A stretch of DNA of 31,689 nucleotides from a virus, in IMG/VR virus record IMGVR_UViG_3300030105_001108, positions 559 through 32,247 of that record. One strand, 5' to 3'. The position numbers and the translations under genes are program-made. The notes under the pieces are model-generated. The model was given only the letters and a program-made list of their open reading frames with translations. It did no database searches and was not told the DNA's origin. Below, one piece after another: positions 18,296-31,689 of this stretch; positions within the stretch are counted from its first letter, which is position 1; each line of letters begins with the position of its first letter.

Positions 18296-18868
18296 CTATA
18301 ATTGTTTATTCAGTTCTGCAATCATATGAGCTTTAGTTTTTCTTCTATCTAAGATAATACCTCTTTCTTCTGCCCACTTATCTAAAGCTTTCTTTGACAT
18401 CTTTTTAAAATTTGGATGTTCTTCTTCATGCTTTTCTTGTTTGTTATTAAATACCTCGACAGGAATAATAGACTCTTCTTCATGATCGTGTGAATGTTCT
18501 TCATCATGAGAATGTGGATGAGAATGAACAGTACCATCATCGTGTTCATGTTCATGTTCGTGTGCATCAGGATCAATATCCAAATCTAATTCTGGTTCTG
18601 GCACTCCCAAACTTCCCATATATTTTTCAAAGCTAGTTTGCTCTTGAGAAAATGTCCCCCATTCAGTTATGGTACAATCTCCCTTTTCAATATCAGATTT
18701 AATCACAGAATCTACTACTTTTGCAACGATAGATTTTCTATCTGCTCTTTTATTTCTAATTTCAACTCCATTATCTAAAGCCATCTGAATTAGATATTCA
18801 TTATCATATTTAGCATCACTATTCCATTTTTCGATAATATTCCATTTTACTTTTGCATAACTTGTCAT
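18296..18868 (-). CDS. Histidine-rich protein with C-terminal HeH/SAP-like helix pair
   Basis: A 190-residue protein in three parts. Residues 1-85 are a charged helical region. Residues 91-132 are an acidic, His-rich segment with 11 histidines between 103 and 129 (HEHEHEHDDGTVHSHPHSHD), resembling zinc- or nickel-binding His-rich loops of metal transporters and chaperones. Residues 157-190 (MSKKALDKWAEERGIILDRR onward) match the helix-extended-loop-helix/SAP-like pattern seen in phage head and Rho-like N-terminal domains. Function unknown; metal binding plus a nucleic-acid-type module is unusual. It overlaps the o-spanin gene by four bases. Confidence 0.75.
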   Translation of the reverse strand: MTSYAKVKWNIIEKWNSDAKYDNEYLIQMALDNGVEIRNKRADRKSIVAKVVDSVIKSDIEKGDCTITEWGTFSQEQTSFEKYMGSLGVPEPELDLDIDPDAHEHEHEHDDGTVHSHPHSHDEEHSHDHEEESIIPVEVFNNKQEKHEEEHPNFKKMSKKALDKWAEERGIILDRRKTKAHMIAELNKQL

Positions 18869-19257
18869 TTCATAATCTCCTTTTCATCTCTTGGTTTAGC
18901 GGCTTCTTCGTAGTATATGATAATCTCTTTCTGTTGTTCAATGTATCTTTTTATTTCTGCCATGTTTAATGCAAGTGTTTCATAGTCTCTTACACTCAAT
19001 ACATATGCAACTAATGGATCACCATTCTCTTTTTGAAACTTCTCTTTAAACTCTTTAAAATTCTCTTCCGTAACAACCCACCATTTCATAGTGGTGTTCA
19101 TTGTAATAGGTTGAGGACGATTCTGTATAGGTATATTTCTTTCTACCTCTACCGTCTGAACTTCAATTTGTGTGAGTTTAGGCCAAGAACTACAACTACT
19201 TAGTACTAGGGTAAGCAGTAATAGACTCGAAATCTTCAAGCACTCTCTTAGATGCAT
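18865..19257 (-). CDS. o-spanin, Rz1-like outer-membrane lipoprotein
   Basis: A 130-residue lipoprotein. The signal peptide has a lipobox with Cys22 (LLLLTLVLSSCSS). The mature part contains NIPIQNRPQPI and ends in a charged helix (YIEQQKEIIIYYEEAAKPRD). It overlaps the 3' end of the membrane-anchored coiled-coil gene by 62 bases in another frame, the overlapping Rz/Rz1 layout. Spanins fuse inner and outer membranes at the end of Gram-negative lysis. It is longer than lambda Rz1 (60 residues), as in many T4-like phages. Confidence 0.8.
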   Translation of the reverse strand: MHLRECLKISSLLLLTLVLSSCSSWPKLTQIEVQTVEVERNIPIQNRPQPITMNTTMKWWVVTEENFKEFKEKFQKENGDPLVAYVLSVRDYETLALNMAEIKRYIEQQKEIIIYYEEAAKPRDEKEIMK

Positions 19258-19585
19258 TGTTTATCTTCCTTTCCCAAACTGCTGGTTCTTCTGCACTCAA
19301 CTTACTAAGATTTATCTTTCTTAACTTACTTAATAGTTGGTTCTTATATTTATTTGCATTAACCAACTTAGTTTGTAATTCATTATTCAATTCTGCAAAT
19401 TTTGCTGCATCAGCCTGTAGAGTATCAATAGTATTTTTCTGCATCTTTGCAGCAGTTTCTAGTTTTGCACTGTTCACTGTCAACGTCTGAATACGTGATT
19501 GGGTGTCCTTGTAGTAATAGTATCCACCATAGACAACACCACCGACAAGACCAAGTACAACTATGAGCATATAAACTTTTAACAT
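19196..19585 (-). CDS. i-spanin, Rz-like membrane protein
   Basis: A 129-residue protein with an N-terminal signal anchor (MLKVYMLIVVLGLVGGVVYG) and a periplasmic coiled coil (SAKLETAAKMQKNTIDTLQA and NELQTKLVNANKYKNQLLSK). This is the i-spanin topology, partnered with the overlapping o-spanin lipoprotein. The C-terminal part WERKINNASKRVLEDFESIT would meet the o-spanin. A GGGAG precedes the ATG. Confidence 0.82.
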   Translation of the reverse strand: MLKVYMLIVVLGLVGGVVYGGYYYYKDTQSRIQTLTVNSAKLETAAKMQKNTIDTLQADAAKFAELNNELQTKLVNANKYKNQLLSKLRKINLSKLSAEEPAVWERKINNASKRVLEDFESITAYPSTK

Positions 19586-23191: not shown

Positions 23192-23553
23192 TACAGTTTC
23201 CTTAAAATATCTAAAACTTCTTGGTTTTCCTCTACGTCACTCAATTCGTTCTCTCTCATTATATTTAGGAATAATAAAAAAGACTTGAGTGTTTCCCAAT
23301 GCTCTCTTTGTATCTTAAAGAGAAGAAGGGTCACGCAAGCCTCAGGGCCGAACAAATTATTCAAAACAATAATGTGGTTTAGAAGCAACCTTTCTTTAAG
23401 TATGTTATGGTCTTTATATTTTCTCAAAAGACGTTTTACATATTTAAATCGCTTCATATCATCATGAAATTCTTTTTCTCCCTCACACTGAGGATTGTCA
23501 TAATGTTTAATTGCAAACATCATAACATTGTCAGAAGTTATATTTTCATACAT
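23191..23553 (-). CDS. Conserved T4-like phage protein
   Basis: A 120-residue helical protein with family-typical MYENITSDNVMMFAIKHYDN, then MKRFKYVKRLLRKYKDHNIL, LLLNHIIVLNNLFGPEACVT and LLLFKIQREHWETLKSFLLF. This small protein is widely conserved in T4-like marine phages with unknown function; I believe it has a DUF number but do not assert one. It is tightly packed between two structural-block genes with one-base overlaps. Confidence 0.82.
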   Translation of the reverse strand: MYENITSDNVMMFAIKHYDNPQCEGEKEFHDDMKRFKYVKRLLRKYKDHNILKERLLLNHIIVLNNLFGPEACVTLLLFKIQREHWETLKSFLLFLNIMRENELSDVEENQEVLDILRKL

Positions 23554-23984
23554 TATTCGATGTGAGCACGCAACCTACATTGGTTAGTTTCTGTCATTTC
23601 ATAACTAATATGTAGTGCAAGGCCACCTTCAATTTTATGAGAAATTCCATCATCATTGAGGAATTCATCATGAGGAGTATCAACATCTTTTCCAAATCTT
23701 CCACCATATGATGTTAGGGGAAGTGACATTTTACCACTGTTCTCTACCATAGAATCTTCATTAATAGCAGGAAATGATAAACCAAGATTTGACAACGATC
23801 CTCTAATCCTAGTAAGAGCAGCGTATGGGTCCATTTGATCTTCAATCACATAACTACCAATAATTGCATTAATCTTTCTTACAACAGCAGGATTATAACC
23901 TACGGCATATCTTCCAAAAGTTGCTTGTTGTCCACCGCCTGGGATTGGACCATTCTCTGCAATCATCTGCTTAAACTTTTTCAT
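23553..23984 (-). CDS. Hypothetical structural-block protein
   Basis: A 143-residue protein, MKKFKQMIAENGPIPGGGQQ onward, with YNPAVVRKINAIIGSYVIED, DPYAALTRIRGSLSNLGLSF and FLNDDGISHKIEGGLALHIS. No catalytic motif. Conserved-looking and between structural genes; probably virion associated or an assembly factor. It overlaps the upstream small gene's end by 14 bases. Confidence 0.75.
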   Translation of the reverse strand: MKKFKQMIAENGPIPGGGQQATFGRYAVGYNPAVVRKINAIIGSYVIEDQMDPYAALTRIRGSLSNLGLSFPAINEDSMVENSGKMSLPLTSYGGRFGKDVDTPHDEFLNDDGISHKIEGGLALHISYEMTETNQCRLRAHIE

Positions 23985-26819: not shown

Positions 26820-27623
26820 TTACTTTTTCTTTTCCATAATTTTTGGATTCATCTCTACTGATGCAACCTTCTTACCTGTCATAGTTTTACCATCTTTTAC
26901 TTCTTTTGTCAAGTCCTTTTTACTTTCTTTCTTAAAGGGACTTTTACCTTCATCAAAACCCCAAACTTTTGCAAGGGTTTCTCTCATACTATCATTTTTA
27001 CCTTTTTGTGCAGAAATCCAATCACCATCTTGGCCAGGCGTTACATCCTCAGTGTGTTTACGTAACTTGTCTGTACCCCACTCAAGAGATTCAGTTTTAT
27101 GTGCAGGCTGAGACATATGTCCAGCAGACATATAGTTAGCCATAAGTGCTTTAACAGATTTTAAATCCAATCTCATAATCTTTGCAATTTCTTCAGCAGA
27201 TTTTTTATCTTTAATCAGCGAGTGCATCTGAGACATTTTGCCTTCTTTAACTTCAGTTTCTTCTTTTACTTCGTATGTTTTACCAGAAACAACAAAGGTC
27301 TTTTCACCCTTGTCTTTAGCAGCCTTTAGTGCCATTCCAAATGCATTACCTTCTTTCTTTGTAATTGCCTTAGAAACTGCCTTACGGCGTTTGTGAAGAT
27401 ACTTGTCAGAAGAATCTACATCACCATCGTTGTCAACATCTTTGTCTTTACGATCTTTGAACTTCTTCTTGACTGCTTTAGGTTGAACAGCGTCCAGACC
27501 ATCGCCATCATCAGACTTGTCATTCTTATTGGTTTCATCAATACTCTTAGCAGCCTCTTGCCACAACCCTAGAATTGATTGCTCAAGGCTACCTTCTTTT
27601 GTATCCAAATATTTGTTACCCAT
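26820..27623 (-). CDS. Head/scaffold-like protein with EF-hand-type loop
   Basis: A 267-residue, highly charged, Lys/Asp-rich protein. Residues near 60-75 carry DVDNDGDVDSSD, a perfect 12-residue EF-hand/dockerin-type calcium loop (acidic residues at 1,3,5,7,9,12; Gly at 6), followed by KYLHKRRKAVSKAI. This segment is familiar from marine T4-like phage head proteins. TFVVSGKTYEVKEETEVKEG follows. The C-terminus is basic. Gene overlap of eight bases with the polyprotein upstream suggests an internal head or core protein. Role inferred. Confidence 0.72.
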   Translation of the reverse strand: MGNKYLDTKEGSLEQSILGLWQEAAKSIDETNKNDKSDDGDGLDAVQPKAVKKKFKDRKDKDVDNDGDVDSSDKYLHKRRKAVSKAITKKEGNAFGMALKAAKDKGEKTFVVSGKTYEVKEETEVKEGKMSQMHSLIKDKKSAEEIAKIMRLDLKSVKALMANYMSAGHMSQPAHKTESLEWGTDKLRKHTEDVTPGQDGDWISAQKGKNDSMRETLAKVWGFDEGKSPFKKESKKDLTKEVKDGKTMTGKKVASVEMNPKIMEKKK

Positions 27624-29853
27624 TTTTAATCTCCTTGAGTTTTTTACTAACTTTATCTAAAATTGTGTTTTCTTTTAGTGCAGACAACATATCCTTATAG
27701 GACTTAGAAACTTTTGCTTGAAACTTCTCTTTGTCATTTGCTTTTTTCATAGAGTTATGTTTATTTTGCACTGCTTGAGCAATCTTTGCACTAACCTTGA
27801 CTTTCTTTTTGTCCGTAAACTCTACAGGAAAATTACCTCTTAGTGAAACGGACTTTCTCAGTTGCATAATGATGTTCTTAGATGCAGACTTTACATCGTC
27901 ATCAGATGCATCCGTATCTACATCAGCAGGATCAACTGTTTTACCTTTACGCATGGCCCTCATTGCATCAGCACGAGCAGACGCTTCTGCAAGGGAGTAA
28001 CCCTTGTTAAGATATTCTTTAGCATCCTTTTTGTCAATAACTTCAACCTTACCCTTCTTGACAACCATAACTTCCTTCTTGGGATTTTTTAATTGGCGGG
28101 CTTCATCAAGGTCAACTTCTTCTAACAAATCTTCAACATACTCTTGTGGACTTAAACTGATTCCAAAAGTTTGTAGTCTGCGGTCATCATCTAGTGTTTT
28201 TGCAAATTTCACCACACCAGACCTATCACCTTTCTTCAGCATAGCTGCAACTTTCAACATATCTTTTTTATCATTTTTATCAGAACCGTCAGACTCGACT
28301 GGGTTTTTGCTACGTTTTGCAGCGTTCTCAAGGTCTATTCCCTTTTTTACTAGGCCTTCATCAAGGTCAACTTCTTCTTTCATTTTAAGGCCTCTTGATA
28401 TTAGTTCACGTTTTGCTAATTTAAGCTGATTACCAAAAACAGGACTAACTGAATCCTCTGTGTCATTTTTACTAAGCCATGCTTTTAGTTTATCGTTGGA
28501 CATCTTTTTAAAATTTTCATCAAGTTCAACTTCTTCATCTTTCTTTTTAGGGTTCTCACCACGTTCTTTCTCAGAGATTGCAATTGCAGCTAGTTGAACC
28601 ATTGAAAGTGCCTCAACGTCTTTCTCTTCTACACTCTCTCCACGAACTTGTTTTGCAAGGTCAGAATCTGCCTTACCCCAAGTTCCAGCAGATTTAGTTA
28701 CAAAAGAGTTTACTCTTGCAAATGCCCATTGTTGTGAAGTTGTGCCAGGACGGTGACCTGTCTTATATGCAGCCATTCCTCTGTCGTATACTTTCTTTAG
28801 AATACCATATGGCATACCAGACTTCTTTGCCTTAGTTACAAGACCTTCAATCTTTTCATCAAGTTCAACTTCTTCTTTTTTCAGTTTTGGATATTTTTTC
28901 ATAATATCGTCTGCTGCTTTCTTAATGTTACCGTCATGTTTTTTTAACATGTTACGTACAAGTGTATCTCCTTGCTCACCAAGTCTCCAACCGTTTTTAC
29001 TTAAAATATCAAAAACTTTTTTATCATCACTACCAGCATAGTTTTTCATCATTTTTCGATATTCGGGAGTACCTTCATCAAGTTCAACTTCTTCTTTAAC
29101 GATATCTGTCATTTTTACTCCACTTGGAGTGCGAGAGAAATCATGTTTAACAGTGATTTTGTCTCCATCAATTTTTATAACTTCGCCTTTTTCTATATAT
29201 TCTCTACCTTTACGGCGAAGTCTTACCTTTATATTATCACCAACCTTTACTGCTTCATCAATGTCAGATTCTTCTTTTTTGGGTTTCTCACCACGTTCTT
29301 TCTTAGAGATTGCAATTGCAGCCTGTTGAGCCATTGATACTGCCTCAACAACAACTTCCTCTACTTTTGCATCAAGGTAATCTGCCATACCATCCAGTTT
29401 ATCAACTGCGACTGCGACTTTATTAGTCCACCATGAAGGCAGTGAATCTTCTGCATTTAATTTGGTAAGTTCACCAGACATCTTTGTAAGTGCAGACATT
29501 GCAACTTTTACGTTGGTTTGTGCAGATGCAACATCAGTATGGCCATCTTCATCAAGGTCAACTTCTTCATAACTAGACTTAATCTGTTTCATTGCAAGGG
29601 ACTGTAGTTTCATGATTTGTGATTTACTACCACTATTAATCATCTTTTCAATAGATTTCTTGTTCTTTGGATTAACGGCATTATAAACAGCCATGATTGC
29701 AGATGCAGTAAACGAATCCATCTGTAGTTTACCGTCTTTCATCTTAATGGTTTGGTTTGCACCACCAGCAGCCTTCTTCATCAAGGCCATGTTGTCCTCA
29801 CCAAGATAAACTTGCATTATTGATTCTGTCATGCTTCGTTTATAATTTGCCAT
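27616..29853 (-). CDS. Head-associated polyprotein with repeated cleavage-like motifs
   Basis: A 745-residue protein built of small charged domains separated by seven acidic motifs ending at residues 102, 200, 260, 333, 446, 499 and 584 (six EEV(D/E)LDE and one EESDIDE). Each ends in (L/I)xE, the consensus cut by T4-type prohead protease gp21, so cleavage would release pieces of about 53-161 residues. AAIAISxKERGExPKK occurs twice (178-193, 422-437). Residues 203-250 look like a small beta-barrel/KOW-type domain. The first motif also resembles a calcium loop. Probably packaged inside the capsid; processing is inference. Confidence 0.72.
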   Translation of the reverse strand: MANYKRSMTESIMQVYLGEDNMALMKKAAGGANQTIKMKDGKLQMDSFTASAIMAVYNAVNPKNKKSIEKMINSGSKSQIMKLQSLAMKQIKSSYEEVDLDEDGHTDVASAQTNVKVAMSALTKMSGELTKLNAEDSLPSWWTNKVAVAVDKLDGMADYLDAKVEEVVVEAVSMAQQAAIAISKKERGEKPKKEESDIDEAVKVGDNIKVRLRRKGREYIEKGEVIKIDGDKITVKHDFSRTPSGVKMTDIVKEEVELDEGTPEYRKMMKNYAGSDDKKVFDILSKNGWRLGEQGDTLVRNMLKKHDGNIKKAADDIMKKYPKLKKEEVELDEKIEGLVTKAKKSGMPYGILKKVYDRGMAAYKTGHRPGTTSQQWAFARVNSFVTKSAGTWGKADSDLAKQVRGESVEEKDVEALSMVQLAAIAISEKERGENPKKKDEEVELDENFKKMSNDKLKAWLSKNDTEDSVSPVFGNQLKLAKRELISRGLKMKEEVDLDEGLVKKGIDLENAAKRSKNPVESDGSDKNDKKDMLKVAAMLKKGDRSGVVKFAKTLDDDRRLQTFGISLSPQEYVEDLLEEVDLDEARQLKNPKKEVMVVKKGKVEVIDKKDAKEYLNKGYSLAEASARADAMRAMRKGKTVDPADVDTDASDDDVKSASKNIIMQLRKSVSLRGNFPVEFTDKKKVKVSAKIAQAVQNKHNSMKKANDKEKFQAKVSKSYKDMLSALKENTILDKVSKKLKEIKNG
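28102..29568 (-). repeat. Dispersed coding repeat encoding EEV(D/E)LDE
   Basis: A 21-base coding repeat (GAAGAAGTTGA(A/C)CTTGATGAA, with small changes) occurs at 29548-29568, 29074-29094, 28855-28875, 28516-28536, 28357-28377 and 28102-28122, with another at 31409-31429 in the neighbouring gene. Conservation of the DNA as well as the peptide suggests recent duplication or recombination between modules. Confidence 0.8.
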
Positions 29854-29857
29854 ATCT

Positions 29858-31689
29858 CTAACCCTTCATTAAATCCGTAACTGATTTTGTAGACCAAAAC
29901 TTACAGGACCAGTATCCTGCTGTTGTTTTATCTTTCTTTTGATCGCAATTGTGTCTTGCTCGAAATGCTTTTCTACGTGCTGGATCATCTCGTTTGATAG
30001 ACATATTTGGATCACCAAACTCGACTTTTACCACATTTCCCTTGTCATTTTTGACATAAACCTTGTATTTCTTTACATCGCCTTTTGTAGGATTATTTAG
30101 TTCTTTTCCACTCTTATCATCTTTTTCTGTGACTTCGCCCCACTCATTTAACTCTACTTCTTCTTGCATCTCTTTTGTTTTCTTCTTCATCTTGTCGATG
30201 TATGTGCGAAAAACTGATGCTTCAGAAGTTTTACCCATCTCTTTTGCACGTTGTTCCATTGCAATTGCAGCCTGTATCTTGTGTGCATGAGGTTTACCAC
30301 TACCAATAATCTTCTTTACACTTGCCTTTGCAGTATCTACGTCCTTAAAACCTAAACCTTGAATTGTTCCTTTTGGATTTTCATCCGTATATAAGTCAGA
30401 GTGTTTATCACTTCCTGCTGGTTGACCTTTCTTACGAGGTATTCTGGGCTCCTCATTCTTAGGAACACAGTTTGGAACCATTCTACCACTTTTCTTCTTC
30501 ATACCAACTTGTTTGTGTGTATCCCAGCAAGGAGCATCTTCATTCTTTGAAAGATATGCAGCGATAGCCATCTCTCTACGTTTCTCTTTAGACTTACCCT
30601 TGAACTGTGGTGCATCAGACTTCTCAAAGTCATCTATGTAATCTTTTTGGCTTGCACTATCTGGAAGTACCTCACCAAACATCTGTTTGAACTTCTTGGT
30701 GTGAACAGATGGTTTTGTCTTTGCGTCTGCATCGCCAGGAGCAGGGCCTGACTTCTTCTTCCTAAAGTGTGCATCTCTCTTGTCTTTAGTAGACTTTGCC
30801 ATATCACCAGCATAATACTTTGCAGGCTGTGTGCCCTTCTTGTCATCAATATCTTTGTCTTGTTTAACTTCTTGAATTGAATCTACAAAATCTTTAAACG
30901 ACAGAGTTTCATTTTGTGATTTATACTCTGCTTTTAATTCTTTTGGAAGTTTACCTTGTTTTACCAAATCGTTTATATAATCACGGGCCATTCTATCAGT
31001 AACATCTGATATACTCTTAGTAACATCATGAATGATATTCATCGGGTTTGGAGTTTTCCCTGCATTTTGTTGTTTTGCAAATTCAGTGGCAACTGTTATA
31101 GCAAGTTTATTCATTCCTTTTTTGTGAGTTTTTGTGAAAAGATAACTCTTTGCCTTTTTGAGCCACGGATATTTATCCAGTAAATCCTCATCTATCTCTC
31201 GTAACCGTGGTTCTCTACGATTCTTGGATGGGTCTTCGTTTCTTAGATTATCAGGCTCATTGTTCATTGGGTCATTGTCTTTGTGGCCAACGTCCATACC
31301 TACCTGAGTCTTGTCTCCCATAACTCTACGAGCTTTGTTTCGTGAGGAACGTCTTTCAATCTGTTCTGGTTTACCTTGATAGTTTGCATACTCTTTTTTA
31401 TAGTTGCGTTCATCAAGGTCAACTTCTTCATCATAAGGTGAACGCTGCCATCCTCTGGATTCTAAATCTTTAATTTGTTTTTTATCGCTTGCATCTACAG
31501 TTTTTATATCCTTTGGATTCATATTCCTTCGCATACGATCATAGGCAGTGGGTTGTTTATTTTTGAAAAGAGTAATTGTTTTTTTCTCATTAAGTTCAAT
31601 CTCATGCAACCATGCCTTATGTACTTTACCGTCCTCATCTACAAATGAGAGATAGTTTGTACCCTTGCGAACAACCTCACCTGTAACAC
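29858..31689 (-). CDS. Head polyprotein with HNH-like segment, 5' end outside window
   Basis: The frame is open from the right edge, so this gene is partial (at least 609 residues). Numbering from the TTG at 31609, (L/I)xE motifs end at 8, 67, 141 and 489. Residues 78-133 (PEQIERRSSRNKARRVMGDK; VGHKDNDPMNNEPDNLR) resemble the phage HNH-type HKDGN..NN...NLR pattern, bracketed by motifs 67 and 141. Later parts recall widespread phage head segments: KYYAGDMAKSTKDKRDAHFR, SDAPQFKGKSKEKRREMAIA, GMKKKSGRMVPNCVPK, and FGDPNMSIKRDDPARRKAFR with FRARHNCDQ. The edge part (GEVVRKGTNYLSFVDEDGKV) is KOW-like. Structural/internal role inferred. Confidence 0.72.
   Translation of the reverse strand, partial: VTGEVVRKGTNYLSFVDEDGKVHKAWLHEIELNEKKTITLFKNKQPTAYDRMRRNMNPKDIKTVDASDKKQIKDLESRGWQRSPYDEEVDLDERNYKKEYANYQGKPEQIERRSSRNKARRVMGDKTQVGMDVGHKDNDPMNNEPDNLRNEDPSKNRREPRLREIDEDLLDKYPWLKKAKSYLFTKTHKKGMNKLAITVATEFAKQQNAGKTPNPMNIIHDVTKSISDVTDRMARDYINDLVKQGKLPKELKAEYKSQNETLSFKDFVDSIQEVKQDKDIDDKKGTQPAKYYAGDMAKSTKDKRDAHFRKKKSGPAPGDADAKTKPSVHTKKFKQMFGEVLPDSASQKDYIDDFEKSDAPQFKGKSKEKRREMAIAAYLSKNEDAPCWDTHKQVGMKKKSGRMVPNCVPKNEEPRIPRKKGQPAGSDKHSDLYTDENPKGTIQGLGFKDVDTAKASVKKIIGSGKPHAHKIQAAIAMEQRAKEMGKTSEASVFRTYIDKMKKKTKEMQEEVELNEWGEVTEKDDKSGKELNNPTKGDVKKYKVYVKNDKGNVVKVEFGDPNMSIKRDDPARRKAFRARHNCDQKKDKTTAGYWSCKFWSTKSVTDLMKG

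Follow-up and report, generated by a model that had tools for sequence, protein, structure and literature searches.

The locus at 27616..29853 raises the question of why a single phage protein should carry seven closely similar acidic heptamers, and whether these mark the places at which it is taken apart. The window, that is, the whole stretch of 31,689 nucleotides analysed here, comes from a 32,247-base viral fragment without head genes. A combined ORF and motif scan places a 745-aa polyprotein ORF with eight modules, p1 to p8, on the minus strand at 27616..29853; the plus-strand reading of 27616-29853 was ruled out because of its many stops. As the preliminary description had stated, the protein contains six EEV[DE]LDE heptamers, starting at residues 96, 254, 327, 440, 493 and 578, and a single EESDIDE starting at residue 194. 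Recomputed, cuts after all seven would yield pieces of 102, 98, 60, 73, 113, 53, 85 and 161 aa, in agreement with the eight pieces of 53-161 residues given there, but the spacing, described as regular, is uneven, with motifs 53-113 aa apart. The motif [DE][LI][DE]E occurs seven times versus 0.2 (maximum 3) in 5,000 shuffles, and [LI]xE occurs 15 times versus 6.9 in shuffles (P ~0.002); the shuffles exclude a chance origin of the heptamers. Across all ORFs of the window, the linker motif is confined to the polyprotein and the adjoining upstream ORF 29858-31687. Further candidate sites in the polyprotein are MTE10, LGE19, VVE170, LAE623 and, near the C-terminus, KLKE741. KDVE414 was also considered as a cut site and dropped, as the residue two before the E is not hydrophobic. 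The features are as follows.

29858..31687, minus strand: upstream sister ORF, truncated at the end of the record, with linkers DEEVDLDE and QEEVELNE
27616..29853, minus strand: polyprotein ORF, 745 aa, modules p1-p8
29824..29853, minus strand: N-terminal MANYKRSMTE, residues 1-10, capsid-targeting-like propeptide (aromatic 4, hydrophobic 8, E10)
29548..29853, minus strand: p1, residues 1-102, high-confidence alpha/beta domain in the model
29548..29568, minus strand: linker 1, EEVDLDE, residues 96-102
29254..29547, minus strand: p2, residues 103-200, DGHTDV...WWTNKVAVAV module and AAIAISKKERGEKPKK tail
29254..29274, minus strand: linker 2, EESDIDE, residues 194-200
29074..29253, minus strand: p3, residues 201-260, small SH3/Tudor-like barrel, from fold matches
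29074..29094, minus strand: linker 3, EEVELDE, residues 254-260
28855..29073, minus strand: p4, residues 261-333, rare helical module
28855..28875, minus strand: linker 4, EEVELDE, residues 327-333
28516..28854, minus strand: p5, residues 334-446, DUF5824 (PF19141) and a second AAIAISEKERGENPKK tail
28516..28536, minus strand: linker 5, EEVELDE, residues 440-446
28357..28515, minus strand: p6, residues 447-499, orphan module
28357..28377, minus strand: linker 6, EEVDLDE, residues 493-499
28102..28356, minus strand: p7, residues 500-584, helical module with distant relatives
28102..28122, minus strand: linker 7, EEVDLDE, residues 578-584
27616..28101, minus strand: p8, residues 585-745, basic (+18)
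26820..27623, minus strand: downstream ORF containing IDE and FDE sites
23553..23984, minus strand: small gene starting MKKFKQMIAE|NGPIPG, the best T4-like targeting N-terminus of the window

DUF5824 is the sole Pfam match of the polyprotein, covering residues 341-395 of p5 (PF19141; E 3e-15, 56.8 bits at a curated cut-off of 25), and Pfam gives no peptidase domain. The Pfam scan, a single-protein HMM search that distant members could escape, found no MPTase, ParB-like or large-polyvalent-protein domain, and a pattern scan found no relative of p6. One iterated profile matches both p1 (29548-29853) and p8 (27616-28101), which look like diverged copies. Of the further candidate sites, VVE170|A lies inside p2 and LAE623|ASARAD inside p8, and a site like the latter also stands before the p8 module in relatives; the C-terminal KLKE|IKNG is similar to the ends of full-length relatives. 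As to the neighbours, the piece of the sister ORF 29858-31687 directly after DEEVDLDE weakly resembles HNH_3 (E 0.0012, below the Pfam cut-off) and also matches a PHROG HNH family, and the end of this ORF is DUF5754-like. The ORF at 26820..27623 resembles a 251-aa Melnitz ORF in the same position (L059:16479-17234), and the product of 23553-23984 is, from its N-terminal sequence, a candidate head-targeted protein. Two overlapping ORFs at 18865-19585 on the minus strand both match Rz-like spanin families.

The sequence identifies the contig as part of the genome of a T4-like marine phage akin to HTVC008M and Melnitz. Its isolate-phage protein matches are to Methylophilales phage Melnitz, Pelagibacter phage HTVC008M and phage C48C1, all under Kyanoviridae, and the cluster occupies the same position in those isolates, flanked by the primase-helicase on one side and by the DNA primase and ribonucleotide reductase on the other. 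The cytidyltransferase/DUF5824 proteins there (HTVC008M gp130 and Melnitz ORFs 18-21) make up the homologous cluster at this position and likewise have IDE or LDE before DUF5824, but they have fewer modules and fewer linkers and are annotated merely as hypothetical or cytidyltransferase. The p2 module has 428 matching encoding stretches in IMG/VR and zero matches among 50,697 isolate phage records, and the polyprotein modules reappear in relatives in shuffled order. In unrelated phages, DUF5824 adjoins portal and capsid genes, which fits a head-associated role. Three such DUF5824 loci are L313:3132-3848, L316:3452-4495 and L317:2984-5503, where the domain is, in this order, flanked by portal and capsid genes, adjacent to a portal gene and part of a long protein that may contain a prohead-protease region.

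Where the motif stands relative to the modules was followed across viral contigs searched with the whole polyprotein and with profiles of p2, p5 (DUF5824) and p8; the profile scans gave 428, at least 597 and 188 encoding stretches, respectively, the best 80 of each were fetched, and the residues upstream of each module were tabulated over all distinct contexts. For p2 (best 80 of 428 stretches), [LIVMF]xE exactly abuts the module start at positions -3 to -1 in 57 of 57 distinct contexts, which share descent and hence are not independent events, whereas shuffled upstream sequences gave a mean of 2.0 and a maximum of 8. Position -1 is invariably E and -3 invariably hydrophobic, while -2 and the positions from -4 outward are unconstrained. 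For DUF5824 (best 80 of at least 597 stretches), a site falls within four adjacent edge offsets in ~101 of 109 contexts, 71 of them at one offset, and the p4 module, present on four other contigs, is bounded by hydrophobic-x-E at both edges in all four. In an unbiased test, broader but also noisier, 45% of BLAST alignment edges lay near a site versus 23% by chance, a low rate for which either the imprecision of BLAST edges or module edges without sites may account. As read from these contexts, the junction rule appears strong for p2, DUF5824 and p4 and less certain for module edges in general. A degenerate motif with free flanks at module edges looks like a protease recognition site. The specificity of the T4 prohead protease gp21 is described as L/I-x-E; as roughly one in four p2 junctions has V, M or F at P3, the specificity here must be somewhat broader.

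The modules p2 and DUF5824 also exist as separate small genes, the former starting with MRRFKSYIKE|DGHEDV or MKRFKSYMKE|DGHEDV and the latter with MIKFSQYITE|AD, MKTFNDFIVE|G or MITFKKYLEE. For comparison, the database record of T4 IPII annotates its start, MKTYQEFIAE, as a 10-residue propeptide. T4 internal proteins have the targeting sequence in common, not the mature domains, and within that sequence residues 4 and 7 count for targeting and residues 8 and 10 for processing (PMC9026906). The stand-alone marine N-termini fit the T4 propeptide at all four of these positions. The start of the polyprotein, MANYKRSMTE, fits the pattern with Y4, M8 and E10 but not with S7, full-length relatives start with MTTYRKSMSE, MTNYTKTMRE and MTRYTQSMAE, and a second N-terminal site of the polyprotein, YLGE, ends at residue 19. 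A scan of the ~218 kb of HTVC008M and Melnitz outside the cluster gave no T4-like targeting start, and all targeting-start matches in the annotated phages lie within the cluster. A P-loop kinase-like gene from L330:7185 onward (contig G018) has the very T4-like start MKSFLQYLDE|A, and the HTVC008M cluster contains a similar P-loop gene.

A protease of the type proposed is encoded by relatives. HTVC008M and Melnitz possess a gp21-type protease (Pfam Peptidase_S77, E ~1e-32) adjoining gp22 and gp23, and an S77 protease is found on 8 of the 10 relatives' contigs of at least 69 kb, including a contig with the p4 module; shorter contigs are mostly without one, as expected of fragments. In HTVC008M, Melnitz and three metagenomic relatives, the capsid protein retains L-x-E near the T4 gp23 cut position, shortly before a conserved region (FLGE|IA, FLSE|AA, MLNE|AI, MLHE|AA and YLKE|AA).

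We hypothesize that this T4-like marine phage encodes a capsid-targeted, prohead-processed cargo polyprotein, which is the best reading of the locus and one that we consider probable. By analogy with T4 (PMC9026906), we infer that its N-terminus would act like a T4 capsid-targeting sequence and direct the entire chain to the core of the prohead. There, the S77 (gp21-type) prohead protease would cut after hydrophobic-x-E, mainly in the EEV[DE]LDE linkers. Cleavage would release, within the head, some eight or more small folded domains, which would stay with the DNA and probably be ejected upon infection like T4 internal proteins. In evolution, the linkers may in addition serve as short common DNA seams for module exchange, again a mechanism that we infer.

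The linker DNA bears both on this last step and on a rival explanation. EEVELDE is encoded as GAAGAAGTTGAACTTGATGAA in 49 of 91 contexts versus 3.6 expected from codon use, and the linker leucine codon is CTT in 93% versus 31%. Such conservation points to exchange or to a recent spread of the linker as DNA, and it makes linker similarity alone weak evidence for cleavage. In one relative (L231:938-2959), a linker connects a truncated copy of the DUF5824 start with another sequence, behind which the intact DUF5824 module lies, an arrangement that is likely a trace of recombination at the linker. The polyprotein could be an uncut multidomain virion or early protein, with acidic LDE linkers that are flexible spacers kept as recombination seams, and the conservation of linker DNA beyond codon use together with the shuffling of modules among relatives speaks for this. 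However, a seam alone leaves the degeneration to hydrophobic-x-E with free flanks unexplained, and single-module genes end their N-terminus with the same residue in the same place as T4 propeptides, and we regard an uncut protein as unlikely. The case for cleavage is carried by the junction rule and the stand-alone forms. From its sequence, the linker DNA probably doubles as a seam at which modules are exchanged, a role that does not compete with that of a protease site in the proposed cargo polyprotein.

The preliminary description had suggested structure prediction as a check, and AlphaFold2 was applied to the whole chain (43 alignment rows, mean pLDDT 74). An alignment of module fragments to the full chain by MAFFT misplaced p1, p3 and p8 and gave way to one of full-length relatives. 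The model consists of folded modules with low-confidence stretches between them. All seven linkers fall in stretches of pLDDT<50, with 6-7 of 7 residues each, which none of 200,000 random placements equalled, and the linkers are predicted to be disordered. Assigning functions by fold was dropped, as p3 alone gave matches, to Tudor/SH3-like structures at a middling Z of ~8, which are suggestive at most and show no function; for the DUF5824 and p8 profiles, no solved relative was found by sequence. Inside modules, [LI]xE is depleted relative to shuffles in p2 (5 versus 23.7) and in p8 (8 versus 18.6), while the count inside DUF5824 (0 versus 3.4) is within the shuffle range and not significant. 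The scarcity of sites inside p2 and p8 fits cargo that survives the protease and speaks against a scaffold, that is, a core protein broken by gp21 into peptides that leave the head, like T4 gp22, gp67 and gp68. These T4 core proteins are indeed cut into fragments at several L/I-x-E sites (PMC9026906), and multiple such sites per chain are also found in the polyprotein. In contrast to the T4 scaffold, however, whose peptides mostly leave, the polyprotein has its sites between modules that are predicted to be folded, with few inside p2 and p8, and the relatives own a separate site-rich gp22 beside gp21 and gp23; a scaffold role is accordingly quite improbable. The prohead-protease polyprotein of the preliminary description is strongly supported by the placement of sites at module edges, the targeting N-termini, the S77 protease of relatives, the predicted disorder of the linkers and the depletion in p2 and p8, while targeting, cleavage, retention with the DNA and ejection would follow the T4 example, and the injected effectors suggested there are more conjectural still.

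Among known systems, the proposed cargo polyprotein resembles IPI, IPII and IPIII of T4, which likewise have an N-terminal sequence of ~10 residues ending in hydrophobic-x-E at positions 8-10 and unrelated small cargo domains behind a common targeting signal. This likeness concerns the proposed way of working, and we do not count the polyprotein among the T4 internal proteins by homology. Whereas T4 uses one gene and one cut per cargo, the polyprotein contains many domains with a cut signal at the joins. In the giant phages phiKZ and SPN3US, a prohead protease cuts packaged ejection proteins after x-x-E, and in SPN3US the propeptides undergo several cuts (PMC10052503). These ejection proteins share the head-protease processing proposed here, but each has a long propeptide and a single mature protein, and no multi-cargo string has been described for them. 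The polyvalent proteins of phages and conjugative elements are mosaic and multidomain like the polyprotein and are thought to enter with the DNA, and an analogy to polyproteins has been drawn by the authors who described them (PMC5512222); they are, however, released by embedded peptidases and consist of different domains, whereas release here is proposed to depend on the phage's own prohead protease. That the protein is a polyvalent effector-type protein delivered whole, with neutral linkers, is very improbable in view of the junction rule and of a Pfam result limited to DUF5824 with no peptidase, although proteins of this kind are often packaged and are mosaics of several domains (PMC5512222). 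Searches of the open-access literature gave no account of a cargo polyprotein cut by a prohead protease.

If the reading as a processed cargo polyprotein is true, a large number of marine phage genes that lack a name would have a common role as head-packaged cargo, and the LDE junctions would provide a simple rule for dividing such proteins into functional units, with which candidates for early host-takeover or counter-defence proteins could also be listed in T4-like marine phages. More generally, the T4-like phages of the ocean may possess an open cargo rack, in which the linkers are both protease sites and DNA seams and new head-delivered domains can be taken up or exchanged without a targeting signal of their own, an idea on which we are evenly divided. 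If the polyprotein reading holds, the T4 targeting idea would likewise reach beyond one cargo for each gene, with a single targeting signal serving many cargos, which suggests how a cargo repertoire could evolve fast.
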